Positions 1,904 through 32,404 of a stretch of 64,000 nt of DNA are shown piece by piece. The DNA is taken from assembly GCA_030549335.1 (NCBI GenBank), contig CM060198.1, positions 38,883,853 through 38,947,852 on the forward strand, read 5' to 3'. A program made the translations under genes and the position numbers. How positions within the stretch are numbered: position 1 is the stretch's first letter; each line of letters opens with the position of its first letter. The notes beneath the pieces were generated by a model. The model was not told the DNA's origin and did not search any database. It saw only the letters and a program-made list of their open reading frames with translations. Source of the stretch: Pontederia crassipes. Taxonomy: Eukaryota > Streptophyta > Magnoliopsida > Commelinales > Pontederiaceae.

Positions 1904-1924
1904 TTTCAAACCGAACCGAAGTTG
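1904..1924. repeat. 5-bp CCGAA duplication within a monomer
   Basis: CAAACCGAAG is expanded to CAAACCGAACCGAAG, an extra CCGAA that lengthens the monomer to 153 bp. The same change is seen near 13,903-13,920. Both are followed by the TTGAACAGTTAC variant, so they share ancestry. Confidence 0.9.
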
Positions 1925-3412: not shown

Positions 3413-3552
3413 ACAATCAAAGATAACGCACGTGGGGATTAGAGTCTTAGAGTTAGGTTCAAAGCTATAAGTTATAGATACTTATGACATCCTTTGGGTG
3501 TCCTAAGAGGTGATAGATCTTTAACTCTATTTCAAACCGAAGTTGAACCGTT
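3413..3552. repeat. 140-bp A monomer with 8-bp deletion
   Basis: The expected GATCTTTAGAACTTTAACTC is reduced to GATCTTTAACTC near 3,517-3,528, a loss of 8 bp between two CTTTA repeats. The related copies near 7,816 and 10,776 keep the full sequence, so the deletion happened in this copy after the segment was duplicated, or was converted back in the others. Confidence 0.92.
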
Positions 3553-8460: not shown

Positions 8461-11430
8461 TGGGGATTAGAGTCTTAGAGTTAGGTTGAAAGCTATAAGT
8501 TATAGATACTTATTACAACCTTTGGTTGTCCTAAGAGGTGATAGATCTTTAGAACTTTAACTCTATTTGAAGCCGAAGTTGAACCGTTACAATCAAAGAT
8601 AACGCTCTTGGGGATTAGAGTCTTCGAGTTAAGTTCAAAGCTATAAGTTATAGACACTAATGACATCCTTTGGGTGTCCTAAGAGGTGATAGATCTTTAG
8701 AACTTTAACTCTATTTCAATCCGAAGTTTAACCGTTACAATCAAAGATAACGCTCTTGGGGATTAGAGTCTTAGAGTTAGGTTCAAAGCTATAAGTTATA
8801 GATACTTATGACATCCTTTGGGTGTCCTAAGAGGTGATAGATCTTTAGAACTTTAACTCTATTTCAATCCGAAGTTGAACCGTTACAATCAAAGATAACG
8901 CTCTTGGGGATTAGAGTCTTAGAGTTAGGTTCAAAGCTATAAGTTATAGATACTTATGACATCCTTTGGGTGTCCTAAGAGGTGATAGATCTTTAGAACT
9001 TTAACTATATTTCAAACCGAAGTTGAACCGTTACAATCAAAGATAACGCACTTGGGGATTAGAGTCTTAGAGTTAGGTTCAAAGCTATAAGGTATAGACA
9101 CTTATTACAACATTTGGGTGTCCTAAGAGGTGATAGATCTTTAGAACTTTAACTCCATTTTAAACCGAAGTTGAACCGTTACAATCAAAGATAACGCTAT
9201 GGGGGATTAGAGTCTTAGAGTTAGGTTCAGAGCTATAAGTTATAAATACTTATTACAACCTTTGGTTGTCCTAAGAGGTGATAGATCTTTAGAACTTTAA
9301 CTCTATTTCAAACCGAAGTTGAACCGTTACAATCAAAGATAACGCTCTTGCAGATTTGAGTCTTAGAGTTAGGTTCAAAGCTATAAGTTATAGATACTTA
9401 TTACAACCTTTGGGTGTCCTAAGAGGTGATAGATCTTTAGAACTTTAACTCTATTTCAAACCGAAGTTGAACCGTTACAATCAAAGATAACGCTCTTGGG
9501 GATTAGAGTCTTAGAGTTAGGTTCAAAGCTATAAGTTATAGACACTTATTACAACATTTGGGTGTCCTAAGAGAAGATAGATCTTTAGAACTTTAACTCC
9601 ATTTCAAACCGAAGTTGAACCGTTACAATCAAAGATAACGCTCTGGGGGATTAGAGTCTTAGAGTTAGGTTCAATGCTATAAGTTATAGATACTTATTAC
9701 AACCTTTGGTTGTCCTAAGAGGTGATAGATCTTTAGAACTTTAACTCTATTTCAAACCGAAGTTGAACCGTTACAATCAAAGATAACGCTCTTGCAGATT
9801 TGAGTCTTAGAGTTAGGTTCAAAGCTATAAGTTATAGATACTTATTACAAGCTTTGGGTGTCCTAAGAGGTGATAGATCTTTAGAACTTTAACTCTATTT
9901 CAAACCAAAGTTGAACCGTTACAATCAAAGATAACACTCTTGGGGATTAGAGTCTTAGAGTTAGGTTCAAAGCTATAAGTTATCAATACTTATGACATCC
10001 TTTGGGTGTCCTAAGAGGTGATAGATCTTCAGAACTTTAACTCTATTTCAAACCGAAGTTGAACCGTTACAATCAAAGATAACGCTCTTGGGGATTAGAG
10101 TCTTAGAGTTAGGTTCAAAGCAATAAGTTATAGATACTTATTACAACCTTTGGGTGTCCTAAGAGGTTATAGATCTTCAAAACTTTAACTCTATTTCAAA
10201 CCGAAGTTGAACCGTTACAATCAAAGATAACGCTCTTGGGGATTAGAGTCTTAGAGTTAGGTTCAAAGCTATAAGTTATAGATACTTATTACAACCTTTG
10301 GGTGTCCTAAGAGGTGATAGAGCTTTAGAACTTGAACTCTATTTCAACCCGAAGTTGAACTGTTACAATCAAAGATAACGCTCTTGGGGATTAGAGTCTT
10401 AGAGTTAGGTTTAGAGCAATAAGTTATAGATACTTATGACATCCTCTGGGTGTCCTAAGAGGTGATAGATCTTTAGAACTTTAACTCTATTTCAATCCGA
10501 AGTTGAACCGTTACAATCAAAGATAACGCTCTTGGGGATTAGAGTCTTAGAGTTAGGTTCAAAGCTATAAGTTATAGATACTTATGACATCCCTTTGGGT
10601 GTCCTAAGAGGTGATAGATCTTTAGAACTTTAACTATATTTCAAACCGAAGTTGAACCGTTACAATCAAAGATAACGCACGTGGGGATTAGAGTCTTAGA
10701 GTTAGGTTCAAAGCTATAAGTTATAGATACTTATGTCATCCTTTGGGTTTCCTAAGAGGTGATAGATCTTTAGAACTTTAACTCTATTTCAAACCGAAGT
10801 TGAACCGTTACAATTAAAGATAACGCTCTTGGGGATTAGAGTCTTAGAGTTAGGTTCAAAGCTATAAGTTATAGACACTTATTACAACATTTGGTTGTCC
10901 TAAGAGGTGATAGATCTTTAGAACTTTAACTCCATTTCAAAACGAAGTTGAACCGTTACAATCAAAGATAACGCTCTGGGGATTAGAGTCTTAGAGTTAG
11001 GTTCAAAGCTATAAGTTATAGATACTTATTACAACCTTTGGGTGTCCTAAGAGGTGATAGATCTTTAGAACTTTAACTCTATTTCAAACCGAAGTTGAAC
11101 CATTACAATCAAAGATAACGCTCTTGGGGATTAGAGTCTAAGAGTTAGGTTCAAAGCTATAAGTTATAGATACTTATGACATCCTTTGGGTGTCCTAAGA
11201 GGTGATAGATCTTTAGAACTTTAACTCTATTTCAAACCGAAGTTGAACCGTTACAATCAAAGATAACGCTCTTTGGGATTAGAGTCTTAGGGTTAGGTTT
11301 AAAGCAATAAGTTATAGATACTTATTACAACCTTTGGGTGTCCTAGGAGGTGATAGATCTTTAGAACTTTAACTCTATTTCAAACCGAAGTTGAACCGTT
11401 ACAATCAAAGATAACGCTCTTGGGGATTAG
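8461..11430. repeat. 20-monomer higher-order repeat (2,960 bp), copy 2
   Basis: This is the tandem partner of 5,500-8,460, lying immediately next to it. It differs by a few scattered substitutions, for example TTTGAAGCCG at about 8,567 instead of TTTCAAGCCG, CATCCTCTGGG at about 10,441 and TTATGTCATCC near 10,731. The match ends near 11,436, where TCTTCGAGTT appears in place of TCTTAGAGTT. From there the sequence follows the 4,170-6,230 block instead. Confidence 0.9.
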
Positions 11431-13487
11431 AGTCTTCGAGTTAGGTTCAAAGCTATAAGTTATAGACACTAATGACATCCTTTGGGTGTCCTAAGAGGTG
11501 ATAGATCTTTAGAACTTTAACTCTATTTCAATCCGAAGTTGAACCGTTACAATCAAAGATAACGCTCTTGGGGATTAGAGTCTTAGAGTTAGGTTCAAAG
11601 CTATAGGTTATAGATACTTATGACATCCTTTGGGTGTCCTAAGAGGTGATAGATCTTTAGAACTTTAACTCTATTTCAATCCGAAGTTGAACCGTTACAA
11701 TCAAAGATAACGCTCTTGGGGATTAGAGTCTTAGAGTTAGGTTCAAAGCTATAAGTTATAGATACTTATGACATCCCTTTGGGTGTCCTAAGAGGTGATA
11801 GATCTTTAGAACTTTAACTATATTTCAAACCGAAGTTGAACCGTTACAATCAAAGATAACGCACTTGGGGATTAGAGTCTTAGAGTTAGGTTCAAAGCTA
11901 TAAGTTAGTTATAGACACTTATTAAAACATTTGGGTGTCCTAAGAGGTGATAGATCTTTAGAACTTTAAGTCCATTTCAAACCGAAGTTGAACCGTTACA
12001 ATCAAAGATAACGCTATGGGGGATTAGAGTCTTAGAGTTAGGTTCAAAGCTATAAGTTATAGATACTTATTACAACCTTTGGTTGTCCTAAGAGGTGATA
12101 GATCTTTAGAACTTTAACTCTATTTCAAACCGAAGTTGAACCGTTACAATCAAATATAACGCTCTTGCAGATTTGAGTCTTAGAGTTAGGTTCAAAGCTA
12201 TAAGTTATAGATACTTATTACAACCTTTGGGTGTCCTAAGAGGTGATAGATCTTTAGAACTTTAACTCTATTTCAAACCGAAGTTGAACCGTTACAATCA
12301 AAGATAACGCTCTTGGGGATTAGAGTCTTAGAGTTAGGTTCAAAGCTATAAGTTATAGATACTTATGACATCCTTTGGGTGTCCTAAGAGGTGATAGATC
12401 TTTAGAACTTTAACTCTATTTCGATCCGAAGTTGAACCGTTACAATCAAAGATAACGCTCTTGGGGATTAGAGTCTTAGAGTTAGGTTCAAAGCTATAAG
12501 TTATAGATACTTATGACATCCTTTGGGTGTCCTAAGAGGTGATAGATCTTTAGAACTTTAACTATATTTCAAACCGAAGTTGAACCGCTACAATCAAAGA
12601 TAACGCACTTGGGGATTAGAGTCTTAGAGTTAGGTTCAAAGCTATAAGTTATAGACACTTATTACAACATTTGGGTGTCCTAAGAGGTGATAGATCTTTA
12701 GAACTTTAACTCCATTTCAAACCGAAGTTGAACCGTTACAATCAAAGATAACGCTCTGGGGGATTAGAGTCTTAGAGTTAGGTTGAAAGCTATAAGTTAT
12801 AGATACTTATTACAACCTTTGGTTGTCCTAAGAGGTGATAGATCTTTAGAAATTTAACTCTATTTCAAGCCGAAGTTGAACTGTTACAATCAAAGATAAC
12901 GCTCTTGGGGATTAGAGTCTTCGAGTTAAGTTCAAAGCTATAAGTTATAGACACTAATGACATCCTTTGGGTGTCCTAAGAGGTGATAGATCTTTAGAAC
13001 TTTAACTCTATTTCAATCCGAAGTTGAACCGTTACAATCAAAGATAACGCTCTTGGGGATTAGAGTCTTAGAGTTAGGTTCAAAGCTATAAGTTATAGAT
13101 ACTTATGACATCCTTTGGGTGTCCTAAGAGGTGATAGATCTTTAGAACTTTAACTCTATTTCAATCCGAAGTTGAACCGTTACAATCAAAGATAACGCTC
13201 TTGGGGATTAGAGTCTTAGAGTTAGGTTCAAAGCTATAAGTTATAGATACTTATGACATCCTTTGGGTGTCCTAAGAGGTGATAGAACTTTAGAACTTTA
13301 ACTATATTTCAAACCGAAGTTGAACCGTTACAATCAAAGATAACGCACTTGGGGATTAGAGTCTTAGAGTTAGGTTCAAAGCTATAAGTTATAGACACTT
13401 ATTACAACATTTGGGTGTCCTAAGAGGTGATAGATCTTTAGAACTTTAACTCCATTTTAAACCGAAGTTGAACCGTTACAATCAAAG
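10004..13487. repeat. Second copy of the 2,755-6,230 segment
   Basis: Monomer order follows 2,755-6,230 to about 13,487. The left copy then carries GCTATGGGGG, whereas this one carries GCTCTTGGGG followed by AGTCTAAGAG. Its left third is also the right part of the 2,960-bp unit. The two repeat structures therefore overlap and must have arisen in successive events. Confidence 0.87.
11848..11999. repeat. 152-bp monomer with GTTA insertion (third copy)
   Basis: Carries the same GTTA duplication as the first monomer, at about 11,898-11,914. It is flanked by the same neighbours as the copy at 4,591, so it was copied as part of a larger segment rather than arising again. Confidence 0.93.
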
Positions 13488-13899
13488 ATAACGCTCTTGG
13501 GGATTAGAGTCTAAGAGTTAGGTTCAAAGCTATAAGTTATAGATACTTATGACATCCTTTGGGTGTCCTAAGAGGTGATAGATCTTTAGAACTTTAACTC
13601 TATTTCAAACCGAAGTTGAACCGTTACAATCAAAGATAACGCTCTTTAGGATTAGAGTCTTAGAGTTAGGTTTAAAGCAATAAGTTATAAATACTTATTA
13701 CAACCTTTGGGTGTCCTAAGAGGTGATAGATCTTTAGAACTTTAACTCTATTTTAAACCGAAGTTGAACCGTTACAATCAGAGATAACGCTCTTGGGGAT
13801 TAGAGTCTTAGAGTTAGGTTCAAAGCTATAAGTTATAGATACTTATGACATCCTTTGGGTGTCCTAAGAGTTGATAGATCTTTAGAACTTTAACTCTAT

Positions 13900-13924
13900 T
13901 TCAAACCGAACCGAAGTTGAACAG
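13900..13924. repeat. Second 5-bp CCGAA duplication
   Basis: Reads CAAACCGAACCGAAGTTG and is followed by AACAGTTAC, as at 1,904. The two sites are about 12 kb apart and mark another dispersed segment exchange inside family A. Confidence 0.9.
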
Positions 13925-15261
13925 TTACAATCAAAGATAACGCTCTTGGGGATTAGAGTCTTAGAGTTAGGTTCAAAGCTATAAGTTAAAGATACTTATT
14001 ACAACCTTTGGGTGTCCTAAGAGGTGATAGATCTTAAGAACTTTAACTCTATTTCAAACCGAAGTTGAACCGTTACAATCAAAGATAACGCTCTTGGGGA
14101 TTAGTGTCTTAGAGTTAGGTTCAAAGCTATAAGTTATAGACACTTATGACATCCTTTGGGTGTCCTAAGAGGTGATAGATCTTTAGAACTTTAACTCTAT
14201 TTCAAACCGAAGTTGAACCGTTACAATCAATGATAACGCTCTTGGGGATTAGAGTCATAGAGTTAGGTTCAAAGCTATAAGTTATAGACACTTATTACAA
14301 CATTTGGGTGTCCTAAGAGGTGATAGATCTTTAGAACTTTAACTTCATTTCAAACCGAAGTTGAACCGTTACAATCAAAGATAACGCTCTGGGGGATTAG
14401 AGTCTTAGAGTTAGGTTGAAAGCTATAAGTTATAGATACTTATTACAACCTTTGGTTGTCCTAAGAGGTGATAGATCTTTAGAACTTTAACTCTATTTCA
14501 AACCGAAGTTGAACCGTTACAATCAAAGATAACGCTCTTGCAGATTTGAGTCTTAGAGTTAGGTTCAAAGCTATAAGTTATAGATACTTATTACAACCTT
14601 TGGGTGTCCAAAGAGGTGATAGATCTTTAGAACTTTAACTCTATTTCAAACCGAAGTTGAACCGTTACAATCAAAGATAACGCTCTTGGGGATTAGAGTC
14701 TTTGAGTTAGGTTCAAAGCTATAAGTTATAGATACTTATGACATCCTTTGGGTGTCCTAAGAGGTGATGGATCTTTAGAACTTGAACTCTATTTCAAACC
14801 GAAGTTGAACCGTTACAATCAAAGATAACGCTCTTGGGGATTAGAGTCTTAGAGTTAGGTTTAAAGCAATAAGTTATAGATATTTATTACAACCTTTGGG
14901 TGTCCTAAGAGGTGATAGATCTTTAGAACTTTAACTCTATTTCATAACGAAGTTGAACCGTTACAATCAAAGATAACGCTCTTGGGGATTAGAGTCTTAG
15001 AGTTAGGTTCAAAGCTATAAGTTATAGATACTTATTACAACCTTTGGGTGTCCTAAGAGGAGATAGATCTTTACAACTTTCACTCTATTTCAAACCGAAG
15101 TTGAACCGTTACAATCAAAGATAACGCACTTGGGGATTAGAGTCTTAGAGTTAGGTTCAAAGCTATAAGTTATAGATACTTATGACATCCCTTTGGGTGT
15201 CCTAAGAGGTGATAGATCTTTAGAACTTTAACTATATTTCAAACCGAAGTTGAACCGTTAC

Positions 15262-15413
15262 AATCAAAGATAACGCACGTGGGGATTAGAGTCTTAGAGT
15301 TAGGTTCAAAGCTATAAGTTAGTTATAGACACTTATTAAAACATTTGGGTGTCCTAAGAGGTGATAGATCTTTAGAACTTTAACTCCATTTCAAACCGAA
15401 GTTGAACCGTTAC
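15262..15413. repeat. 152-bp monomer with GTTA insertion (fourth copy)
   Basis: Carries the GTTA duplication at about 15,312-15,328. It shares the GCACGTGG variant with the monomer at position 1, whereas the copies at 4,591 and 11,848 read GCACTTGG. Position 1 and this copy may therefore form one lineage. Confidence 0.92.
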
Positions 15414-15649
15414 AATCAAAGATAACGCTATGGGGGATTAGAGTCTTAGAGTTAGGTTCAAAGCTATAAGTTATAGATACTTATTACAACCTTTGGTTGT
15501 CCTAAGAGGTGATAGATCTTTAGAACTTTAACTCTATTTCAAACCGAAGTTGAACCGTTACAATCAAATATAACGCTCTTGCAGATTTGAGTCTTAGAGT
15601 TAGGTTCAAAGCTATAAGTTATAGATACTTATTACAACCTTTGGGTGTC

Positions 15650-17390
15650 CTAAGAGGTGATAGAGCTTCAGAACTTTAACTCTATTTCAAACCGAAGTTG
15701 AACCGTTACAATCAAAGATAATGCTCTTGGGGATTAGAGTCTTAGAGTTAGGTTCAAAGCTATAAGTTATAGATACTTATTACAACCTTTGGGTGTCCTA
15801 AGAGGTGATAGATCTTTAGAACTTTAACTCTATTTCAAACCGAAGTTGAACCATTACAATCAAAGATAACGCTCTTGGGGATTAGAGTCTAAGAGTTAGG
15901 TTCAAAGCTATAAGTTATAGATACTTATGACATCCTTTGGGTGTCCTAAGAGGTGATAGATCTTTAGAACTTTAACTCTATTTCAAACCGAAGTTGAACC
16001 GTTACAATCAAAGATAACGCTCTTAGGGATTAGAGTCTTAGAGTTAGGTTTAAAGCAATAAGTTATAAATACTTATTACAACCTTTGGGTGTCCTAAGAG
16101 GTGATTGATCTTTAGAACTTTAACTCTATTTTAAACCGAAGTTGAACCGTTACAATCAGAGATAACGCTCTTGGGGATTAGAGTCTTAGAGTTAGGTTCA
16201 AAGCTATAAGTTATAGATACTTATTACAACCTTTGGGTGTCCTAAGAGGAGATAGATCTTTACAACTTTCACTCTATTTCAAACCGAAGTTGAACCGTTA
16301 CAATCAAAGATAACGCACTTGGGGATTAGAGTCTTAGAGTTAGCTTCAAAGCTATAAGTTATAGATACTTATTACAACCTTTGGGTGTACTAAGAGGTGA
16401 TAGATCTTTAGAACTTTAACTCTATTTCAAACCGAAGTTGAATCGTTACAATCAAAGATAACGCTCTTGGGGATTAGAGTCTTAGAGTTAGGTTCAAAGC
16501 TATAAGGTATAGATACTTATGACATCCTTTGGGTGTCCTAAGAGGTGATAGATCTTTAGAACTTTAACTCTATTTCAAACCGTTACAATCAAAGATAACG
16601 CTCTTGGGGATTAGAGTCTTAGAGTTAGGTTCAAAGCAATAAGTTATAGATACTTATTACAACCTTTGGGTGTTCTAAGAGGTGATAGATCTTTAGAACT
16701 TTAACTCTATTTCAAACCGAAGTTGAACCGTTACAATCAAAGATAACGCTCTTGGGGATTAGAGTCTTAGAGTTAGGTTCAAAGCTTTAAGTTATAGATA
16801 CTTGTTACAACCTTTGGGTGTCCTAAGAAGTGATAGAGCTTCAGAACTTTAACTCTATTTCAAACCGAAGTTGAACCGTTACAATCAAAGATAATGCTCT
16901 TGGGGATTAGAGTCTTAGAGTTAGGTTCAAAGCTATAAGTTATAGATACTTATTACAACCTTTGGGTGTCCTAAGAGGTGATAGATCTTTAGAACTTTAA
17001 CTCTATTTCAAACCGAAGTTGAACCATTACAATCAAAGATAACGCTCTTGGGGATTAGAGTCTAAGAGTTAGGTTCAAAGCTATAAGTTATAGATACTTA
17101 TGACATCCTTTGGGTGTCCTAAGAGGTGATAGATCTTTAGAACTTTAACTCTATTTCAAACCGAAGTTGAACCGTTACAATCAAAGATAACGCTCTTTAG
17201 GATTAGAGTCTTAGAGTTAGGTTTAAAGCAATAAGTTATAAATACTTATTACAACCTTTGGGTGTCCTAAGAGGTGATAGATCTTTAGAACTTTAACTCT
17301 ATTTTAAACCGAAGTTGAACCGTTACAATCAGAGATAACGCTCTTGGGGATTAGAGTCTTAGAGTTAGGTTCAAAGCTATAAGTTATAGA
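15650..17390. repeat. 8-monomer tandem repeat (about 1,173-1,184 bp)
   Basis: The rare series GAGCTTCAG, ATAATGCTCTTGG, AACCATTACAATC, AGTCTAAGAG, TATAAATAC and CAATCAGAGATAAC occurs twice. The offset is 1,173 bp at ATAATGCTCT (15,718 to 16,891). Eight monomers would give 1,184, and the missing 11 bp is the deletion at about 16,578 inside the first unit. Part of the series also occurs near 13,490-13,830. Confidence 0.82.
16450..16586. repeat. 137-bp A monomer with 11-bp deletion
   Basis: AAACCGAAGTTGAACCGTTAC is shortened to AAACCGTTAC near 16,578. Eleven bases are lost between two AACCG repeats, as expected for slippage or single-strand annealing. This accounts for the 1,173 rather than 1,184 bp offset of the surrounding 8-monomer repeat. 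Confidence 0.9.
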
Positions 17391-18239
17391 TACTTATTAC
17401 AACCTTTGGGTATCCTAAGAGGTGATAGATCTTTAGAACTTTAACTCTATTTCATACCGAAGTTGAACCGTTACAATTAAAAATAACGCTCTTGGGGATT
17501 AGAGTCTTAGAGTTAGGTTCAAAGCTATAAGTTATAGATACTTATGACATCCTTTGGGTGTCCTAAGAGGTGATAGATCTTTAGAACTTTAACTCTATTT
17601 CAATCCGAAGTTGAACCGTTACAATCAAAGATAACGCTCTTGGGGATTAGAGTCTTAGAGTTAGGTTCAAAGCTATAAGTTATAGATACTTATGACATCC
17701 TTTGGGTGTCCTAAGAGGTGATAGATCTTTAGAACTTTAACTCTATTTCAAACCGAAGTTGAACCGTTACAATCAAAGATAACGCACTTGGGGATTAGAG
17801 TCTTAGAGGTAGGTTCAAAGCAATAAGTTATAGATACTTATTACAACTTTTGGTTGTCCTAAGAGGTGATAGATCTTTAGAACTTTAACTCTATTTCAAA
17901 CCGAAGTTGAACCGTTACAATCAAAGATAACGCTCTTGGGGATTAGAGTCTTAGAGTTAGGTTCAAAGCTATAAGTTATAGATACTTATGACATCCTTTG
18001 GGTGTCCTAAGAGGTGATAGATCTTTAGAACTTTAACTCTATTTCAAACCGAAGTTGAACCGTTACAATCAAAGATAACGCTCTTGGGGATTAGGGTCTT
18101 AGAGTTAGGTTCAAAGCTATAAGTTATAGATACTTATTACAACCTTTGGGTGTGCTAAGAGGTGATAGATCTTTAGAACTTTAACTCTATTTCAAACCGA
18201 AGTTGAACCGTTACAATCAAAGATAACGCTCTTGGGGAT

Positions 18240-18775
18240 TAGAGTCTTAGAGTTTGGTTCAAAGCTATAAGTTATAGACACTTATTACAACATTTGGGTG
18301 TCCTAAGAGAAGATAGATCTTTAGAACTTTAACTCCATTTCAAACCGAAGTTGAACCGTTACAATCAAAGATAACGCTCTGGGGGATTAGAGTCTTAGAG
18401 TTAGGTTCAATGCTATAAGTTATAGATACTTATTACAACCTTTGGTTGTCCTAAGAGGTGATAGATCTTTAGAACTTTAACTCTATTTCAAACCGAAGTT
18501 GAACCGTTACAATCAAAGATAACGCTCTTGCAGATTTGAGTCTTAGAGTTAGGTTCAAAGCTATAAGTTATAGATACTTATTACAAGCTTTGGGTGTCCT
18601 AAGAGGTGATAGATCTTTAGAACTTTAACTCTATTTCAAACCAAAGTTGAACCGTTACAATCAAAGATAACACTCTTGGGGATTAGAGTCTTAGAGTTAG
18701 GTTCAAAGCTATAAGTTATCAATACTTATGACATCCTTTGGGTGTCCTAAGAGGTGATAGATCTTTAGAACTTTA
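18240..18775. repeat. A-segment shared with 6,545-7,040 and 9,505-10,000
   Basis: The order CATTTGG with GAGAAGATAG, then AGGTTCAATGCT, then CTTGCAGATTTGAG with TTACAAGCTTTGG, then AACACTCTTGG with TATCAATAC recurs here. It lies 8,736 bp from the 9,571 copy and 11,696 bp from the 6,611 copy, which is whole numbers of monomers (59 and 79) plus 4 bp from the one GTTA insertion lying between. It is the nearest relative of the A patch inside the A/B junction. Confidence 0.83.
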
Positions 18776-19102
18776 ACTCTATTTCAAACCGAAGTTGAAC
18801 CGTTACAATCAAAGATAACGCTCTTGGGGATTAGAGTCTTAGAGTTAGGTTCAAAGCTATAAGTTATAGATACTTATTACAACCTTTGGGTGTCCTAAGA
18901 GGTGATAGAGCTTCAGAACTTTAACTCTATTTCAAACCGAAGTTGAACCGTTACAATCAAAGATAACGCTCTTGGGGATTAGAGTCTTAGAGTTAGGTTC
19001 AAAGCTATAAGTTATAGATACTTATTACAACCTTTGGGTGTCCTAAGAGCTGATAGAGCTTCAGAACTTTAACTCTATTTCAAACCGAAGTTGAACCGTT
19101 AC

Positions 19103-19546
19103 AATCAGAGATAACGCTCTTGGGGATTAGAGTCTTAGAGTTAGGTTCAAAGCTATAAGTTATAGATACTTATTACAACCTTTGGGTATCCCAAGAGGTG
19201 ATAGATCCTAAGAACTTTAACTCTATTTCCAACCGAAGTTGAACCGTTACAATCAATGATAAAGCTCTTGCAGATTTGAGTCTTAGAGTTAGGTTCAAAG
19301 CTATAAGTTATAGATACTTATTACAAGCTTTGGGTGTCCTAAGAGGTGATAGATCTTTAGAACTTTAACTCTATTTCAAACCAAAGTTGAACAGTTACAA
19401 TCAAAGATAACGCTCTTGGGGATTAGAGCCTTAGAGTAAGGTTCAAACCACTAAGTTATAGATACTTATTACTACCTTTGGGTATCCCAAGAGGTGAAAG
19501 ATCCTTAGAACTCTAACTCTATTTGCAACCGAAGTTGAACCGTTAC
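19103..19546. other. A/B junction: three mosaic monomers
   Basis: Three consecutive monomers carry mixtures of A and B diagnostic states. The monomer from 19,103 is A up to site 53 (about 19,155) and B from site 86 (19,188). The monomer from 19,251 is B at sites 7 and 13, then A from the CTTGCAGATTTGAG variant (about 19,266) to its end. The monomer from 19,399 is A at sites 7 and 13, then B from site 40 (19,438) onward. There are therefore three switches inside about 285 bp. The returned A piece matches the A variant exactly 740 bp (five monomers) upstream, sharing CAGATTTGAG, TTACAAGCTTTGGG and CAAACCAAAG. This suggests unequal exchange followed by gene conversion, or two nearby crossovers. 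Confidence 0.9.
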
Positions 19547-19969
19547 AATCAATGATAAAGCTCTTGGGGATTAGACTCTTAGAGTAAGGTTCAAACCACT
19601 AAATTATAGATACTTATTACAACTTTTGGGTATCCCAAGAGGTGATAGATCCTTGGAACTTTAACTCTATTTCCAACCGAAGTTGAACCGTTACAATCAA
19701 TGATAAAGCTCTTGGGGATTAGAGTCTTAGAGTAAGGTTCAAACCACTAAGTTATAGATACTTATTACTACCTTTGGTTATCCCAAGAGGTGATAGATCC
19801 TTAGAACTTTAACTCTATTTCCAACCGAAGTTGAACCGTTACAATCAATGATAAAGCTCTTGGGAATTAGAGTCTTAGAGTAAGGTTCAAACCACTAAGT
19901 TATAGATACTTATTACTACCTTTGGGTATCCCAAGACGTGATAGATCCTAAGAACTTTAACTCTATTTC

Positions 19970-21740
19970 CAACCAAAGCTGAACCGTTACAATCAACGAT
20001 AAAGCTCTTGGGGATTAGACTCTTAGAGTAAGGTTGAAACCACTAAGTTATAGATACTTATTACAACCTTTGGGTATCCCAAGAGGTGATAGATCCTTTG
20101 AACTTTAACTCTATTTCCAACCGAAGTTGAACCGTTACAATCAATGATAAAGCTCTTGGGGATTAGAGTCTTAGAGTAAGGTTCAAAGCTCTAAGTTATA
20201 GATACTTATTACAACCTTTGTGTATCCCAAGAGGTGATAGATCCTTAGAACTTTAACTCTATTTTCAACCGAAGTTGAACCGTTACAATCAGTGATAAAG
20301 CTCTTGGGGATTAGTGTCTTAGAGTAAGGTTCAAACCACTAAGTTATAGATACTTATTACTACCTTTGGGTATCCCAAGAGGTGATAGATCCTTAGAACT
20401 TTAACTCTATTTCCAACCGAAGCTGAACCGTTACAATCAATGATAAAGCTCTTGGGGATTAGTCTCTTAGAGTAAGGTTCAAACCACTAAGTTATAGATA
20501 CTTATTACTACCTTTGGGTATCCCAAGAGGTGATAGATCCTTAGAACTTTAACTCTATTTGCAACGGAAGTTGAACCGTTACAATCAATGATAAAGCTCT
20601 TGGGGATTAGACTCTTAGAGTATGGTTCAAACCACTAAATTATAGATACTTATTACAACTTTTGGGTATCCCAAGAGGTGATAGATCCTTGGAACTTTAA
20701 CTCTATTTCCAACCGAAGTTGAACCGTTACAATCAATGATAAAGCTCTTGGGGATTAGAGTCTTAGAGTAAGGTTCAAACCACTAAGTTATAGAAACTTA
20801 TTACAACCTTTGGGTATCCTAAGAGGTGATAGATCCTTAGAACTTTAACTCTATTCCCAACCGAAGTAGAACCGTTACAATCGATGATAAAGCTCTTGGG
20901 GATTAGACTCTTAGAGTAAGGTTGAAACCACTAAGTTATAGATACTTATTACAACCTTTTGGTATCCCAAGAGGTGATAGATCCTTAGAACTTTAACTCT
21001 ATTTCCAACCGAAGTTGAACCGTTACAATCAATGATAAAGCTCTTGGGGATTAGAGTCTTAGAGTAAGGTTCAAACCACTAAGTTATACATACTTATTAC
21101 AACCTTTGGGTATCCTAAGAGGTGATAGATCCTTAGTACTTTAACTCTATTTCCAACCGAAGTTGAACCGTTACAATCAATGATAAAGCTCTTGGGGATT
21201 AGAGTCTTAGAGTAAGGTTCAAACCACTAAGTTATAGATACTTATTACCACCTTTGGTTATCCCAAGAGGTGATAGATCCTTAGAACTATAACTCTATTT
21301 CCAACCGAAGTTAAACCGTTACAATCAATGATAATGCTCTTGGGGAATAGAGTAAGGTTCAAATCTCTAAGTTATAGATACTTATTACCACCTTTGGGTA
21401 TCCAAAGAGGTGATAGATCCTTAGAACTTTAACTCTATTTCCAATAGAAGTTGAACAGTTACAATCAATGATAAAGCTCTTGGGAATTAGAGTCTTAGAG
21501 TAAGGTTTAAACCACTAAGTTATAGATACTTATTACTACTTTTGGGTATCCCAAGAGGTGATAGATCCTAAGAACTTTAACTCTATTTCCAACCGAAGCT
21601 GAACCGTTACAATCAACGATATAGCTCTTGGGGATTAGAGTCTTAGAGTATGGTTCAAACCACTAAGTTATAGATACTTATTACAACCTTTGGGTATCCC
21701 AAGAGGTGATAGATCCTTAGAACTTTAACTCTATTTCCAA
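19970..21740. repeat. 12/14-monomer repeat, copy 1 (1,768 bp)
   Basis: The unit from CCAAAGCTGA (19,973) to the next CCAAAGCTGA (21,741) is 1,768 bp: twelve monomers, one of them the 140-bp form. Its variants reappear in the following unit in the same order: GATCCTTTGAAC, AAAGCTCTAAG with TTTGTGTATCCC, GATTAGTGTC, AACGGAAG, CCTTGGAAC and CTATTCCC with CGATGATAAAG. Confidence 0.87.
21320..21460. repeat. 140-bp B monomer subtype, 8-bp deletion (first of eight)
   Basis: In this subtype the tandem octamers TTAGAGTC and TTAGAGTA are reduced to one. GGGGAATAGAGTAAGG replaces the longer block, and the monomer is always linked to ATAATGCTC upstream and AAATCTCTAAG downstream. The TGGGGAATAG marker starts at 21,341, 23,405, 26,356, 32,556, 36,837, 38,753, 43,477 and 46,869. 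Because it recurs inside the larger repeat units, the deletion arose once and was then amplified. Confidence 0.93.
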
Positions 21741-23800
21741 CCAAAGCTGAACCGTTACAATCAACGATAAAGCTCTTGGGGATTAGACTCTTAGAGTAAG
21801 GTTGAAACCACTAAGTTATAGATACTTATTACAACCTTTGGGTATCCCAAGAGGTGATAGATCCTTTGAACTTTAACTCTATTTCCAACCGAAGTTGAAC
21901 CGTTACAATCAATGATAAAGCTCTTGGGGATTAGAGTCTTAGAGTAAGGTTCAAAGCTCTAAGTTATAGATACTTATTACAACCTTTGTGTATCCCAAGA
22001 GGTGATAGATCCTTAGAACTTTAACTCTATTTTCAACCGAAGTGGAACCGTTACAATCAATGATAAAGCTCTTGGGGATTAGTGTCTTAGAGTAAGGTTC
22101 AAACCACTAAGTTATAGATACTTATTACTACCTTTGGGTATCCCAAGAGGTGATAGATCCTTAGAACTTTAACTCTATTTCCAACCGAAGCTGAACCGTT
22201 ACAATCAATGATAAAGCTCTTGGGGATTAGTCTCTTAGAGTAAGGTTCAAACCACTAAGTTATAGATACTTATTACTACCTTTGGGTATCCCAAGAGGTG
22301 ATAGATCCTTAGAACTTTAACTCTATTTGCAACGGAAGTTGAACCGTTACAATCAATGATAAAGCTCTTGGGGATTAGACTCTTAGAGTACGGTTCAAAC
22401 CACTAAATTATAGATACTTATTACAACTTTTGGGTATCCCAAGAGGTGATAGATCCTTGGAACTTTAACTCTATTTCCAACCGAAGTTGAACCGTTACAA
22501 TCAATGATAAAGCTCTTGGGGATTAGAGTCTTAGAGTAAGGTTCAAACCACTAAGTTATAGATACCTATTACAACCTTTTGGTATCCCGAGAGGTGATAG
22601 ATCCTTAGAACTTTAACTCTATTTCCAACCGAAGTTGAACCGTTACAATCAATGATAAAGCTCTTGGGGATTAGTCTCTTAGAGTAAGGTTCAAACCACT
22701 AAGTTATAGATAATTATTACAACCTTTGGGTATCCCAAGAGGTGATAGATCCTTAGAACTTTAACTCTATTTCCAACCGAAGTTGAACCGTTACAATCAA
22801 TGATAAAGCTCTTGGGGATTAGAGTCTTAGAGTAAGGTTCAAACCACTAAGTTATAGAAACTTATTACAACCTTTGGGTATCCTAAGAGGTGATAGATCC
22901 TTAGAACTTTAACTCTATTCCCAACCGAAGTAGAACCGTTACAATCGATGATAAAGCTCTTGGGGATTAGACTCTTAGAGTAAGGTTGAAACCACTAAGT
23001 TATAGATACTTCTTACAACCTTTTGGTATCCCAAGAGGTGATAGATCCTTAGAACTTTAACTCTATTTCCAACCGAAGTTGAACCGTTACAATCAATGAT
23101 AAAGCTCTTGGGGATTAGAGTCTTAGAGTAAGGTTCAAACCACTAAGTTATACATACTTATTACGACCTTTGGGTATCCTAAGAGGTGATAGATCCTTAG
23201 TACTTTAACTCTATTTCCAACCGAAGTTGAACCGTTACAATCAATGATAAAGCTCTTGGGGATTAGAGTCTTAGAGTAAGGTTCAAACCACTAAGTTATA
23301 GATACTTATTACCACCTTTGGTTATCCCAAGAGGTGATAGATCCTTAGAACTATAACTCTATTTCCAACCGAAGTTAAACCGTTACAATCAATGATAATG
23401 CTCTTGGGGAATAGAGTAAGGTTCAAATCTCTAAGTTATAGATACTTATTACCACCTTTGGGTATCCAAAGAGGTGATAGATCCTTAGAACTTTAACTCT
23501 ATTTCCAATAGAAGTTGAACAGTTACAATCAATGATAAAGCTCTTGGGAATTAGAGTCTTAGAGTAAGGTTTAAACCACTAAGTTATAGATACTTATTAC
23601 TACTTTTGGGTATCCCAAGAGGTGATAGATCCTAAGAACTTTAACTCTATTTCCAACCGAAGCTGAACCGTTACAATCAACGATATAGCTCTTGGGGATT
23701 AGAGTCTTAGAGTATGGTTCAAACCACTAAGTTATAGATACTTATTACAACCTTTGGGTATCCCAAGAGGTGATAGATCCTTAGAACTTTAACTCTATTT
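21741..23800. repeat. 12/14-monomer repeat, copy 2 (2,064 bp offset in right part)
   Basis: Copy 2 follows copy 1 at offset 1,768 up to the CCTTGGAAC monomer (20,683 to 22,451). From the CTATTCCC monomer onward (20,851 to 22,915) the offset is 2,064. The difference, 296 bp, is exactly two monomers: those around 22,560-22,860 with GATACCTATTAC, CCCGAGAGG and GATAATTATTAC. This copy gained two units or the first lost two. Confidence 0.88.
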
Positions 23801-26150
23801 CCAACCGAAGTTGAACCGTTACAATCAATGATAAAGCTCTTGGGGATTAGACTCTAAGAGTAAGGTTCAAACCACTAAGTTATAGATACTTATTACAACC
23901 TTCGGGTATCCTAAGAGGTGATAGATCCTTAGAACTTTAACTCTATTTCCAACCGAAGTTGAACCGTTACAATCAATGATAAAGCTCTTGGGGATTAGAC
24001 CCTTAGAGTAAGGTTGAAACCACTAAGTTATAGATACTTATTACAACCTTTGGGTATCCCAAGAGGTGATAGATCCTTAGAACTTTAACTCTATTTCAAA
24101 CCGAAGTTGAACCGTTACAATCGATGATAAAGCTCTTGGGGATTAGAGTCTTAGAGTAAGGTTCAAACCACTAAGTTATACATACTTATTACAACCTTTG
24201 TGTATCCCAAGAGGTGATAGATCCTTAGAACTTTAACTCTATTTTCAACCGAAGTTGAACCGTTACAATCAATGATAAAGCTCTTGGGGATTAGTGTCTT
24301 AGAGTAAGGTTCAAACCACTAAGTTATAGATACTTATTACTACCTTTGGGTATCCCAAGAGGTGATAGATCCTTAGAACTTTAACTCTATTTGCAACCGA
24401 AGTTGAACCGTTACAATCAATGATAAAGCTCTTGGGGATTAGACTCTTAGAGTAAGGTTCAAACCACTAAATTATAGATACTTATTACAACTTTTGGGTA
24501 TCCCAAGAGGTGATAGATCCTTGGAACTTTAACTCTATTTCCAACCGAAGTTGAACCGTTACAATCAATGATAAAGCTCTTGGGGATTAGAGTCTTAGAG
24601 TAAGGTTCAAACCACTAAGTTATAGATACTTATTACTACCTTTGGTTATCCCAAGAGGTGATAGATCCTTAGAACTTTAACTCTATTTCCAACCGAAGTT
24701 GAACCGTTACAATCAATGATAAAGCTCTTGGGAATTAGAGTCTTAGAGTAAGGTTCAAACCACTAAGTTATAGATACATATTACTACCTTTGGGTATCCC
24801 AAGACGTGATAGATCCTAAGAACTTTAACTCTATTTCCAACCGAAGCTGAACCGTTACAATCAACGATAAAGCTCTTGGGGATTAGACTCTTAGAGTAAG
24901 GTTGAAACCACTAAGTTATAGATACTTATTACAACCTTTGGGTATCCCAAGAGGTGATAGATCCTTTGAACTTTAACTCTATTTCCAACCGAAGTTGAAC
25001 CGTTACAATCAATGATAAAGCTCTTGGGGATTAGAGTCTTAGAGTAAGGTTCAAAGCTCTAAGTTATAGATACTTATTACAACCTTTGTGTATCCCAAGA
25101 GGTGATAGATCCTTAGAACTTTAACTCTATTTTCAACCGAAGTTGAACCGTTACAATCAATGATAAAGCTCTTGGGGATTAGTGTCTTAGAGTAAGGTTC
25201 AAACCACTAAGTTATAGATACTTATTACTACCTTTGGGTATCCCAAGAGGTGATAGATCCTTAGAACTTTAACTCTATTTCCAACCGAAGCTGAACCGTT
25301 ACAATCAATGATAAAGCTCTTTGGGATTAGAGTCTTAGAGTAAGGTTCAAACCACTAAGTTATAGATACTTATTACAACCTTTGGGTATCCCAAGAGGTG
25401 ATAGATCCTTTGAACTTTAACTCTATTTCCAACCGAAGTTGAACCGTTACAATCAATGATAAAGCTCTTGGGGATTAGAGTCTTAGAGTAAGGTTCAAAT
25501 CTCTAAGTTATAGATACTTATTACAACCTTTGTGTATCCCAAGAGGTGATAGATCCTTAGAACTTTAACTCTATTTTCAACCGAAGTTGAACCGTTACAA
25601 TCAATGATAAAGCTCTTGGGGATTAGTGTCTTAGAGTAAGGTTCAAACCACTAAGTTATAGATACTTATTACTACCTTTGGGTATCCCAAGAGGTGATAG
25701 ATCCTTAGAACTTTAACTCTATTTCCAAACGAAGCTGAACCGTTACAATCAACGATAAAGCTCTTGGGGATTAGAGTCTTAGAGTATGGTTCAAACCACT
25801 AAGTTATACATACTTATTACAACCTTTGGGTATCCGAAGAGGTGATAGATCCTTAGAACTTTAACTCTATTTCAATCGAAGTTGAACAGTTACAATCAAT
25901 GATAAAGCTCTTGGGAATTAGAGTCTTAGAGTAAGGTTCAAACCACTAAGTTATAGATACTTATTACTACTTTTGGGTATCCCAAGAGGTGATAGATCCT
26001 AAGAACTTTAACTCTATTTCCAACCGAAGCTGAACCGTTACAATCAACGATATAGCTCTTGGGGATTAGAGTCTTAGAGTATGGTTCAAACCACTAAGTT
26101 ATAGATACTTATTACAACCTTTGGGTATCCCAAGAGGTGATAGATCCTTA
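23200..26150. repeat. 20-monomer B repeat (2,951 bp), copy 1
   Basis: Variants recur 2,951 bp downstream: the 140-bp monomer (23,405 to 26,356), CCTTCGGGTATCC (23,900 to 26,851), CGATGATAAAG, GATACATATTAC, AGACGTGATAG (24,802 to 27,753) and TTTCAATCGAAG (25,870 to 28,821). Twenty monomers would be 2,960; the missing 9 bp are the 8-bp deletion and one 1-bp deletion. The left edge is set by TTACGACC at about 23,161, absent from copy 2. Confidence 0.9.
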
Positions 26151-29110
26151 GAACTTTAACTCTATTTCCAACCGAAGTTGAACCGTTACAATCAATGATA
26201 AAGCTCTTGGGGATTAGAGTCTTAGAGTAAGGTTCAAACCACTAAGTTATAGATACTTATTACCACCTTTGGTTATCCCAAGAGGTGATAGATCCTTAGA
26301 ACTATAACTCTATTTCCAACCGAAGTTAAACCGTTACAATCAATGATAATGCTCTTGGGGAATAGAGTAAGGTTCAAATCTCTAAGTTATAGATACTTAT
26401 TACCACCTTTGGGTATCCAAAGAGGTGATAGATCCTTAGAACTTTAACTCTATTTCCAATAGAAGTTGAACAGTTACAATCAATGATAAAGCTCTTGGGA
26501 ATTAGAGTCTTAGAGTAAGGTTTAAACCACTAAGTTATAGATACTTATTACTACTTTTGGGTATCCCAAGAGGTGATAGATCCTAAGAACTTTAACTCTA
26601 TTTCCAACCGAAGCTGAACCGTTACAATCAACGATATAGCTCTTGGGGATTAGAGTCTTAGAGTATGGTTCAAACCACTAAGTTATAGATACTTATTACA
26701 ACCTTTGGGTATCCCAAGAGGTGATAGATCCTTAGAACTTTAACTCTATTTCCAACCGAAGTTGAACCGTTACAATCAATGATAAAGCTCTTGGGGATTA
26801 GACTCTAAGAGTAAGGTTCAAACCACTAAGTTATAGATACTTATTACAACCTTCGGGTATCCTAAGAGGTGATAGATCCTTAGAACTTTAACTCTATTTC
26901 CAACCGAAGTTGAACCGTTACAATCAATGATAAAGCTCTTGGGGATTAGACCCTTAGAGTAAGGTTGAAACCACTAAGTTATAGATACTTATTACAACCT
27001 TTGAGTATCCCAAGAGGTGATAGATCCTTAGAACTTTAACTCTATTTCAAACCGAAGTTGAACCGTTACAATCGATGATAAAGCTCTTGGGGATTAGAGT
27101 CTTAGAGTAAGGTTCAAACCACTAAGTTATACATACTTATTACAACCTTTGTGTATCCCAAGAGGTGATAGATCCTTAGAACTTTAACTCTATTTTCAAC
27201 CGAAGTTGAACCGTTACAATCAATGATAAAGCTCTTGGGGATTAGTGTCTTAGAGTAAGGTTCAAACCACTAAGTTATAGATACTTATTACTACCTTTGG
27301 GTATCCCAAGAGGTGATAGATCCTTAGAACTTTAACTCTATTTGCAACCGAAGTTGAACCGTTACAATCAATGATAAAGCTCTTGGGGATTAGACTCTTA
27401 GAGTAAGGTTCAAACCACTAAATTATAGATACTTATTACAACTTTTGGGTATCCCAAGAGGTGATAGATCCTTGGAACTTTAACTCTATTTCCAACCGAA
27501 GTTGAACCGTTACAATCAATGATAAAGCTCTTGGGGATTAGAGTCTTAGAGTAAGGTTCAAACCACTAAGTTATAGATACTTATTACTACCTTTGGTTAT
27601 CCCAAGAGGTGATAGATCCTTAGAACTTTAACTCTATTTCCAACCGAAGTTGAACCGTTACAATCAATGATAAAGCTCTTGGGAATTAGAGTCTTAGAGT
27701 AAGGTTCAAACCACTAAGTTATAGATACATATTACTACCTTTGGGTATCCCAAGACGTGATAGATCCTAAGAACTTTAACTCTATTTCCAACCGAAGCTG
27801 AACCGTTACAATCAACGATAAAGCTCTTGGGGATTAGACTCTTAGAGTAAGGTTGAAACCACTAAGTTATAGATACTTATTACAACCTTTGGGTATCCCA
27901 AGAGGTGATAGATCCTTTGAACTTTAACTCTATTTCCAACCGAAGTTGAACCGTTACAATCAATGATAAAGCTCTTGGGGATTAGAGTCTTAGAGTAAGG
28001 TTCAAAGCTCTAAGTTATAGATACTTATTACAACCTTTGTGTATCCCAAGAGGTGATAGATCCTTAGAACTTTAACTCTATTTTCAACCGAAGTTGAACC
28101 GTTACAATCAATGATAAAGCTCTTGGGGATTAGTGTCTTAGAGTAAGGTTCAAACCACTAAGTTATAGATACTTATTACTACCTTTGGGTATCCCAAGAG
28201 GTGATAGATCCTTAGAACTTTAACTCTATTTCCAACCGAAGCTGAACCGTTACAATCAATGATAAAGCTCTTTGGGATTAGAGTCTTAGAGTAAGGTTCA
28301 AACCACTAAGTTATAGATACTTATTACAACCTTTGGGTATCCCAAGAGGTGATAGATCCTTTGAACTTTAACTCTATTTCCAACCGAAGTTGAACCGTTA
28401 CAATCAATGATAAAGCTCTTGGGGATTAGAGTCTTAGAGTAAGGTTCAAATCTCTAAGTTATAGATACTTATTACAACCTTTGTGTATCCCAAGAGGTGA
28501 TAGATCCTTAGAACTTTAACTCTATTTTCAACCGAAGTTGAACCGTTACAATCAATGATAAAGCTCTTGGGGATTAGTGTCTTAGAGTAAGGTTCAAACC
28601 ACTAAGTTATAGATACTTATTACTACCTTTGGGTATCCCAAGAGGTGATAGATCCTTAGAACTTTAACTCTATTTCCAAACGAAGCTGAACCGTTACAAT
28701 CAACGATAAAGCTCTTGGGGATTAGAGTCTTAGAGTATGGTTCAAACCACTAAGTTATACAAACTTATTACAACCTTTGGGTATCCGAAGAGGTGATAGA
28801 TCCTTAGAACTTTAACTCTATTTCAATCGAAGTTGAACAGTTACAATCAATGATAAAGCTCTTGGGAATTAGAGTCTTAGAGTAAGGTTCAAACCACTAA
28901 GTTATAGATACTTATTACTACTTTTGGGTATCCCAAGAGGTGATAGATCCTAAGAACTTTAACTCTATTTCCAACCGAAGCTGAACCGTTACAATCAACG
29001 ATATAGCTCTTGGGGATTAGAGTCTTAGAGTATGGTTCAAACCACTAAGTTATAGATACTTATTACAACCTTTGGGTATCCCAAGAGGTGATAGATCCTT
29101 AGAACTTTAA
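26151..29110. repeat. 20-monomer B repeat (2,951 bp), copy 2
   Basis: Directly adjoins copy 1 and carries the same variant series with very few differences (TTTGAGTATCC at about 27,001, ATACAAACTTATTAC at about 28,757). That near-identity suggests a recent duplication. After about 29,110 the CCGAATTTGAACC monomer and TTTGTGCATCCC start a different series. Confidence 0.9.
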
Positions 29111-32100
29111 CTCTATTTCCAACCGAATTTGAACCGTTACAATCAATGATAAAGCTCTTGGGGATTAGAGTCTTAGAGTAAGGTTCAAACCACTAAGTTA
29201 TACATACTTATTACAACCTTTGTGCATCCCAAGAGGTGATAGATCCTTAGAACTTTAACTCTATTTCCAACCGAAGTTGAACCGTTACAATCAATGATAA
29301 AGTTCTTGGGGATTAGAGTCTTAGAGTAAGGTTCAAACCACTAAGTTATAGATACTTATTACTACCTTTGCGTATCCCAAGAGGTGATAGATCCTTAGAA
29401 CTTTAACTCTATTTCCAACCGAAGTTGAACCGTTACAATCAATGATAAAGCTCTTGGGGATTAGATTCTTAGAGTAAGGTTCAAACCACTAAGTTATAGA
29501 AACTTATTACAACCTTTGGGTATCCTAAGAGGTGATAGATCCTTAGAACTTTAACTCTATTCCCAACCGAAGTAGAACCGTTACAATCGATGATAAAGCT
29601 CTTGGGATTAGAGTCTTAGAGTAAGGTTCAAACCACTAAGTTATAGATACTTATTACTACCTTTGGGTATCCTAAGAGGTGATAGATCCTTAGAACTTTA
29701 ACTCTATTTGCAACCGAAGTTGAACCGTTACAATCAATGATAAAGCTCTTGGGGATTAGACTCTTAGAGTAAGGTTCAAACCACTAAATTATAGATACTT
29801 ATTACAACTTTTGGGTATCCCAAGAGGTGATAGATCCTTGGAACTTTAACTCTATTTCCAACCGAAGTTGAACCGTTACAATCAATGATAAAGCTCTTGG
29901 GGATTAGAGTCTTAGAGTAAGGTTCAAACCACTAAGTTATAGATACTTATTACTACCTTTGGTTATCCCAAGAGGTGATAGATCCTCGAACTTTAACTCT
30001 ATTTCCAACCGAAGTTGAACCGTTACAATCAATGATAAAGCTCTTGGGAATTAGAGTCTTAGAGTAAGGTTCAAACCACTAAGTTATAGATACTTATTAC
30101 TACCTTTGGGTATCCCAAGACGTGATAGATCCTAAGAACTTTAACTCTATTTCCAACCGAAGCTGAACCGTTACAATCAACGATAAAACTCTTGGGGATT
30201 AGACTCTTAGAGTAAGGTTGAAACCACTAAGTTATAGATACTTATTACAACCTTTGGGTATCCCAAGAGGTGATAGATCCTTTGAACTTTAACTCTATTT
30301 CCAACCGAAGTTGAACCGTTACAATCAATGATAAAGCTCTTGGGGATTAGAGTCTTAGAGTAAGGTTCAAAGCTCTAAGTTATAGATACTTATTACAACC
30401 TTTGTGTATCCCAAGAGGTGATAGATCCTTAGAACTTTAACTCTATTTTCAACCGAAGTTGAACCGTTACAATCAATGATAAAGCTCTTGGGGATTAGTG
30501 TCTTAGAGTAAGGTTCAAACCACTAAGTTATAGATACTTATTACTACCTTTGGGTATCCCAAGAGGTGATAGATCCTTAGAACTTTAACTCTATTTTCAA
30601 CCGAAGCTGAACCGTTACAATCAACGATAAAGCTCTTGGGGATTAGAGTCTTAGAGTATGGTTCAAACCACTAAGTTATACATACTTATTACAACCTTTG
30701 GGTATCCGAAGAGGTGATAGATCCTTAGAACTTTAACTCTATTTCAACCGAAGTTGAACCGTTACAATCAATGATAAAGCTCTTGGGGATTAGACTCTTA
30801 GAGTAAGGTTCAAACCACAAAGTTATAGATACTTATTACTACCTTTGGGTATCCCAAGACGTGATAGATCCTAAGAACTTTAACTCTATTTTCACCGAAG
30901 CTAAACCGTTACAATCAACGATAAAGCTCTTGGGGATTAGACTCTTAGAGTAAGGTTGAAACCACTAAGTTATAGATACTTATTACAACCTTTGGGTATC
31001 CCAAGAGTTGATAGATCCTTTGAACTTTAACTCTATTTCCAACTGAAGTTGAACCGTTACAATCAATGATAAAGCTCTTGGGGATTAGAGTCTTAGAGTA
31101 AGGTTCAAAGCTCTAAGTTATAGATACTTATTACAACCTTTGTGTATCCCAAGAGGTTATAGATCCTTAGAACTTTAACTCTATTTTCAACCGAAGTTGA
31201 ACCGTTACAATCAATGATAAAGCTCTTGGGGATTAGTGTCTTAGAGTAAGGTTCAAACCACTAAGTTATAGATACTTATTACTACCTTTGGGTATCCCAA
31301 GAGGTGATAGATCCTTAGAACTTTAACTCTATTTCCAAACGAAGCTGAACCGTTACAATCAACGATAAAGCTCTTGGGGATTAGAGTCTTAGAGTATGGT
31401 TCAAACCACTAAGTTATACATACTTATTACAACCTTTGGGTATCCGAAGAGGTGATAGATCCTTAGAACTTTAACTCTATTTCAACCGAAGTTGAACCGT
31501 TACAATCAATGATAAAACTCTTGGGGATTAGACTCTTAGAGTAAGGTTCAAACCACAAAGTTATAGATACTTATTACAAACCTTTGGGTATCCTAAGAGG
31601 TGATAGATCCTTAGAACTTTAACTCTATTTCCAACCGAAGTTGAACCGTTACAATCAATGATAAAGCTCTTGGGGATTAGAGTCTTAGAGTAAGGTTCAA
31701 ACCACTAAGTTATAGAAACTTATTACAACCTTTGGGTATCCTAAGAGGTGATAGATCCTTAGAACTTTAACTCTATTCCCAACCGAAGTAGAACCGTTAC
31801 AATCGATGATAAAGCTCTTGGGGATTAGACTCTTAGAGTAAGGTTGAAACCACTAAGTTATAGATACTTATTACAACCTTTTGGTATCCCGAGAGGTGAT
31901 AGATCCTTAGAACTTTAACTCTATTTCCAACCGAAGTTGAACCGTTACAATCAATGATAAAGCTCTTGGGGATTAGAGTCTTAGAGTAAGGTTCAAACCA
32001 CTAAGTTATAGATAATTATTACAACCTTTGGGTATCCCAAGAGGGGATAGATCCTTAGAACTTTAACTCTATTTGCAACCGAAGTTGAACCGTTACAATC

Positions 32101-32404
32101 AATGATAAAGCTCTTGATTAGAGTCTTAGAGTAAGGTTCAAACCACTAAGTTATAGAAACTTATTACAACCTTTGGGTATCCTAAGAGGTGATAGATCCT
32201 TAGAACTTTAACTCTATTCCCAACCGAAGTAGAACCGTTACAATCGATGATAAAGCTCTTGGGGATTAGACTCTTAGAGTAAGGTTGAAACCACTAAGTT
32301 ATAGATACTTATTACAACCTTTTGGTATCCCAAGAGGTGATAGATCCTTAGAACTTTAACTCTATTTCCAACCGAAGTTGAACCGTTACAATCAATGATA
32401 AAGC
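29111..32404. repeat. B block built of short rearranged cassettes
   Basis: About 22 monomers that are not one copy of any single larger unit. They combine pieces seen elsewhere: TTTGTGCATCC, CTATTCCC with CGATGATAAAG, the CCTTGGAAC monomer, and two closely spaced AGACGTGATAG cassettes (30,119 and 30,857). Local length changes include CTTGGGATTAG (29,606), GATCCTCGAAC (29,983), CAAACCTTTGGG (31,577) and CTCTTGATTAG (32,111, loss of three G). Confidence 0.8.

Follow-up and report, generated by a model that had tools for sequence, protein, structure and literature searches.

A three-switch boundary between two types of a 148-bp satellite in Pontederia crassipes and its possible origin in a short conversion tract

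The boundary between two sequence types, A and B, of one 148-bp satellite family in Pontederia crassipes was found to run A|B|A|B, with three switches that keep the 148-bp register throughout. It lies in contig CM060198.1, within a stretch of 64,000 nucleotides (the window). The best explanation, which we hold at somewhat less than even confidence, is an A/B junction together with one short non-allelic conversion tract of 141-174 bp. The seam has no visible function and is regarded as a scar of array turnover, most likely left by the copying and exchange that ordinarily take place among adjacent repeats.

Array structure and monomer types

Tandem Repeats Finder returned the whole window as a single unbroken satellite array (period 148, 433 copies, positions 1-64000, 93% matches), with copies of one unit arranged head to tail over kilobases as in tandem satellite DNA. 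Segmentation with a 148-bp consensus, which starts after the first 94 bases, divided the array into 432 full monomers and one partial monomer (432, of 56 bp, left out of the counts below), gapless between monomers. In the segmented array, insertions never exceed 5 bp and the longest deletion is 11 bp (monomer 111, 16540). A centromeric location would be no more than a guess, based on the kind of array it is.

Diagnostic columns were defined as those whose commonest base differs between the first 124 monomers and monomers 138-431, which gave ten columns (16, 38, 65, 71, 98, 108, 110, 111, 144 and 148). Of the 148 consensus positions, 10 distinguish A (monomers 0-127) from B (monomers 131-431); monomers are on average 0.970 identical to their own consensus in A and 0.966 in B, against 0.905 for A monomers compared with the B consensus. 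Outside the seam, six strict columns show three alleles of the other type, in B monomer 265 and in A monomers 95 and 116. The GC skew drops at the boundary from 0.11-0.13 (window positions 1-18000) to about 0 (20000-64000), which may be a simple reflection of the ten class differences.

Recurrent variants were also observed within each type. Eight B monomers (21265, 23329, 26280, 32480, 36761, 38677, 43401 and 46793) have the same 8-bp deletion (columns 83-90) and are nearly the same in their other variants too, and this deletion serves as a repeated mark of block duplication. Another sub-type of B (18A, 47C, 65C, 99T, 111T, 112G, 148G) is repeated from monomer 334 on (about 49444-63944), and the best lags are 48, 36, 37 and 11 monomers in monomers 330-431 versus 68, 45 and 23 in monomers 131-329. 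Within A, a CAAAC insertion is common to the monomers at 1871 and 13866 (81 monomers apart), a TATA insertion to those at 4533, 11790 and 15204 (49 and 23 monomers apart) and a T insertion to those at 3208, 4384, 7497, 10457, 11641 and 15055 (8 to 23 apart); these recurrent small insertions suggest block duplications inside A.

The seam and the haplotype of its A patch

The array and its seam resolve into the following features.

95..19044, + strand: type A satellite, monomers 0-127, 148-bp period; 0 monomers with at least three B-type alleles
19045..19155, + strand: leading part of monomer 128, still type A and followed by switch 1; type A at all eight diagnostic sites from 19060 to 19155
19156..19187, + strand: switch 1 (A to B), flanked by the diagnostic columns 111 (A) and 144 (B)
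19188..19263, + strand: short B patch; six B-type diagnostic sites, 76 bp minimum and 115 bp maximum
19264..19270, + strand: switch 2 (B to A), bounded by the B site 19263 and the private A-haplotype allele 19271
19271..19411, + strand: A patch of 141-174 bp, which shares its rare linked alleles with monomers 45-46, 65-66 and 124-125
19412..19437, + strand: switch 3 (A to B), between the last A at 19411 and the first diagnostic B at 19438
19438..63944, + strand: type B satellite, starting late in monomer 130 and continuing through monomer 431; none of monomers 131-431 with at least three A-type alleles

Monomers 120-127 are all-A and monomers 131-133 all-B at the ten sites, and between them the ten-site strings of monomers 128, 129 and 130 are AAAAAAAABB, BBBBAAAAAA and AAAABBBBBB, respectively. 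With hybrids taken as monomers holding at least three alleles of each type, 129 and 130 are the only ones among the 432, and this lone A/B hybrid site in 64 kb fits short-range exchange. Because monomers 128 (19045-19192), 129 (19193-19340), 130 (19341-19488) and 131 (19489-19636) are each exactly 148 bp long, the switches kept phase. The initial annotation had placed three switches at 19,155-19,188, 19,263 to about 19,270 and 19,411-19,438, and the ten diagnostic columns confirmed all of them. Switch 1 falls in 32 bases that are identical in the A and B consensuses, the longest such stretch of the monomer. After switch 2 the first diagnostic A stands at 19290, and a private A-haplotype allele stands earlier, at 19271. 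At 19412 all three candidate donors described below have A and the patch has G; switch 3 may therefore lie right at 19411/19412 if the donor had A in that column, in which case the A patch would measure 141-148 bp, and otherwise up to 174 bp. Independent mutation is an implausible source of six B sites followed by ten A sites, as a matter of judgement rather than of a computed P value.

Across 19264-19411, each of three upstream copies equals the A patch at 147 of 148 bases, with the same lone mismatch at 19393, and the 129 bp of 19264-19392 occur exactly at 6828, 9788 and 18524 besides 19264 itself. The nearest of these copies is:

18524..18671, + strand: monomers 124-125, closest of the candidate donors of the A patch; 148 bp with one mismatch, lying 740 bp upstream

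With three equal candidates, at distances of 5, 64 and 84 monomers upstream, the donor is not fixed and the nearest one not proven. An exact match five monomers upstream had been claimed; the match is indeed there and is the nearest candidate, but it carries the mismatch at 19393, and a unique donor at that place is rejected given the equal copies at 6828 and 9788. The mismatch allele at 19393 is present in 39 of 301 B monomers and 3 of 128 A monomers, a point that counts against a conversion tract.

The A patch carries 79C, 80A, 85T and 135G, then 43A in the next monomer. Among A monomers these alleles are rare (11 of 128 for each of columns 79, 80 and 85; 3 of 128 each for 135 and then 43), and within the window all five are found together only at monomers 45-46, 65-66 and 124-125 and in the A patch. 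The combination 79C-80A-85T follows none of the 15 monomers in the window that resemble monomer 128 (A monomers with 14G or 18C); 14 of these were tested directly, and the fifteenth (127) precedes 128 itself, which lacks 79C. The patch and the flanking A thus appear to come from different registers and, judged from the copies in the window, the patch does not simply continue the flanking A in register. It has the form of a non-allelic gene conversion tract, that is, a short donor-matched tract with both ends in the 148-bp phase, here with a donor that is not unique. The B patch (19188-19263) equals the B consensus with one variant at 19210; the window holds no other exact copy of it, but with that base left out of the comparison it matches at 22 other places.

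Two local properties of the DNA were considered at the seam and rejected. Monomers 128-131 contain 8 mismatches, a number reached or exceeded in 26 of 429 four-monomer windows, which speaks against locally raised mutation; mean mismatches per monomer are 1.0 in A and 0.41 in B, and relative to B alone the eight are highish. A hairpin is not indicated (z = -1.65), as 10 of 200 shuffles fold equally well.

Routes to three switches

Under the preferred explanation, an exchange would have joined A to B in register within the 32-bp identity stretch (switch 1), and a short non-allelic gene conversion, with an out-of-register A-type copy as template, would then have placed about one monomer's length (141-174 bp) of A in the first B monomers and so produced switches 2 and 3. 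Conversion is supported by the phase-preserving switches and by the five linked rare alleles of the A patch. We infer that the patch is a conversion tract and not the residue of two unequal exchanges, and also the order of events and a local donor.

Plain conversion predicts one B register on both sides of the A patch. The B patch together with the stretch from column 72 of monomer 130 to column 148 of monomer 131 was therefore compared with B at 21 offsets (-10 to 10). The best mismatch totals were 5 at offset 0 (same register) and 6 at offset 1 (a one-monomer insertion), while offsets -10, -2 and 7 reached 4, below both. The B register is uninformative or not conserved, and neither replacement nor insertion stands out; the result gives plain replacement no support, and a near-consensus B patch holds little information. 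A further point against conversion is that the patch is possibly exactly 148 bp long, with switches 2 and 3 in one phase, as insertion also predicts.

A single simple crossover is rejected, as three switches are present. The argument that a single crossover gives one switch was nevertheless too strong, because crossovers can carry discontinuous conversion tracts and because three switches also result when a simple junction is duplicated. One such duplication in tandem predicts that switches 1 and 3 share a phase and are spaced by a multiple of 148; they lie in columns 111-144 and 71-98, respectively, 224-282 bp apart, and this difference in phase excludes a single duplication of a simple junction.

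Serial unequal exchanges are a possible but less probable route. One example is a duplication that spans the junction with an offset of about five monomers, after which a deletion with breakpoints near column 71 would leave about one A monomer-length between two B stretches. The many such joins in the array (74-90 template switches) agree with it, as do modest identity peaks in A at lags of 49, 20 and 59 monomers (0.960, 0.955 and 0.954; median 0.947), the fact that switches 2 and 3 can share a phase (columns 72-79 and 72), and B stretches flanking the A patch that fit no single B register better than others. Against this stands the need for at least two events after the first junction, and a simulation in which duplication and deletion alone yield the out-of-phase pattern less often when events are few.

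That simulation followed labels only, with 1500 runs in each of 12 settings (nine with conversion, three with duplication and deletion alone) at 5, 20 and 60 events, which were confined to within 20 monomers of the centre; phases were called different above 12 columns. Out-of-phase triples within 300 bp arose from duplication and deletion alone in 1, 26 and 34 of 1500 runs (5, 20 and 60 events, respectively). The corresponding numbers were 67, 88 and 61 with half conversion and a mean tract of 125, 83, 87 and 14 with nine tenths conversion and the same mean tract, and 31, 52 and 23 with nine tenths conversion and a mean tract of 450. The simulation favours conversion at few events and hardly at many; at 60 events, the result for duplication and deletion alone (34 of 1500) lies within the spread of those with conversion (61, 14 and 23). 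The observed patch lengths were reproduced in 6 runs in all with conversion and in 0 without it (0-2 of 1500 per setting), and since these lengths are very rare in every setting, the models are weakly separated.

The proposal of the initial annotation, in which a crossover was combined with conversion or exchange recurred at one place, still belongs to the best class of explanation once its one-switch argument is set aside together with its hint of a hot spot. The latter was judged against the array background with a switch model in which each stretch is a copy, subject to mutation and switching, of sequence elsewhere in the window that lies a multiple of 148 bp away, and switches are counted on Viterbi paths with chosen costs (90 lenient; 76 and 74 stricter). 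Lenient costs gave 10 triples inside 283 bp versus 5.36 under uniform placement, which is borderline (P = 0.059); in this setting the switch at column 44 of monomer 130 rests on the single base 19393, and the seam supplies two of the ten triples. Stricter costs gave 4 triples versus 3.40 (P = 0.44; 76 switches) and 4 versus 3.07 (P = 0.37; 74 switches). Under uniform placement, the chance of a given switch being in such a span is 17%, 11% and 10% for 90, 76 and 74 switches, respectively. Other clusters lie near monomers 11-12, 14-16, 99-101, 151-153, 264-265 and 366-367 at lenient costs, and those at 11, 151 and 264 are left besides the seam at strict costs. These three-switch clusters within one type (monomers 11-12, from 1723; 151-153, from 22441; 264-265, from 39113) are about as dense as the seam. 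Three switches in less than 300 bp are therefore near the array's own background, equally tight clusters occurring elsewhere at about the uniform-placement rate, and a recombination hot spot at the seam is rejected, with the lenient setting borderline. A phase preference of the switches was likewise rejected, on the basis of a phase mass of 9.0-15.4 of 90 in each of eight bins and without a formal test. The seam looks like a visible case of processes that operate elsewhere in the array; it is conspicuous because A and B differ at ten sites.

We consider it unlikely that one event made all three switches, whether break-induced repair with template jumps or a crossover with a discontinuous heteroduplex or conversion tract. 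All switches do fall within 283 bp, and the diagnostic sites put each of them in 26-32 bp of A/B consensus identity; furthermore, break-induced replication is proposed as a main motor of satellite change (PMC12321929, PMC8997354). A clear mismatch excess, a possible trace of error-prone repair, is not seen around the junction (8 mismatches, with 26 of 429 windows at 8 or more), and the crossover version is opposed by the patch haplotype following a 128-like monomer in none of the 15 A copies surviving in the window.

An artefact at the boundary, with A and B reads wrongly joined or corrected during assembly or polishing, is unlikely, and slightly less probable than a one-event origin. Near-identical arrays are where assemblers fail. 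A chimeric join would nevertheless give one switch, and it would take several errors to produce three in register together with linked rare alleles. Mosaics of this sort are also seen at other places within the array, although the same cause could underlie those.

More improbable still, the A patch could be exactly one 148-bp monomer, excised from the A array as a single-monomer circle and integrated into B through one crossover next to the A/B junction; alternatively, one template-switching repair event could have made all three switches. The circle reading implies that both patch ends lie at the same phase, after column 71. If true, the circle or single-event reading would be a molecular snapshot of one satellite type invading another.

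Relation to known satellite systems

Searches with the sequence itself were uninformative: one 21-base word had 0 exact matches in viral contigs and bacterial and archaeal genome contigs, and six DNA words sought in the literature returned matches of one word each, on subjects unrelated by title. A literature search for satellite 'hybrid monomers' found none. Among satellites of similar size, the 147-148 bp centromeric tandem repeats of cultivated strawberry (PMC10807706) and the Vaccinium monomers of 138-148 bp are alike in length only, which identifies nothing. A deer satellite paper was discarded as a parallel, as 148 there is a position and not a length.

In the unequal exchange model (Smith 1976, as summarised in PMC8997354), out-of-register exchange leads to mosaics and block duplications, and the many switches of the present array suggest likewise; in contrast, one exchange across a simple junction cannot give A|B|A|B here, where the phases differ. 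Maize centromere cores share with the preferred explanation a role for conversion as the main form of exchange where crossovers are suppressed, whereas conversion was inferred there (PMC2834711) from centromere-wide markers and linkage disequilibrium rather than from satellite monomer mosaics.

The closest parallel is the short-tract conversion of Arabidopsis centromeres (Dong et al. 2025, as cited in PMC12321929). According to that review, conversion tracts there measure ~125 bp, are mostly nearby and mostly stay under a monomer, and break-induced replication is the main mode of expansion. Shared features are a roughly monomer-sized tract, a possibly nearby donor in the same array, and a phase that is kept; by this analogy, the putative tract of 141-174 bp would be of the same order. 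It also spans about a whole monomer of 148 bp, which counts against conversion, and it is seen in one static sequence with a donor that is not unique. Short conversion tracts have already been reported for plant centromere satellites, and the seam would be an ordinary if clean instance. Exchange becomes visible where satellite types meet: with ten near-fixed markers per monomer and rare linked alleles, the tract ends are resolved to between a few and about 30 bases, and satellite seams can be used to measure the lengths and registers of conversion tracts.
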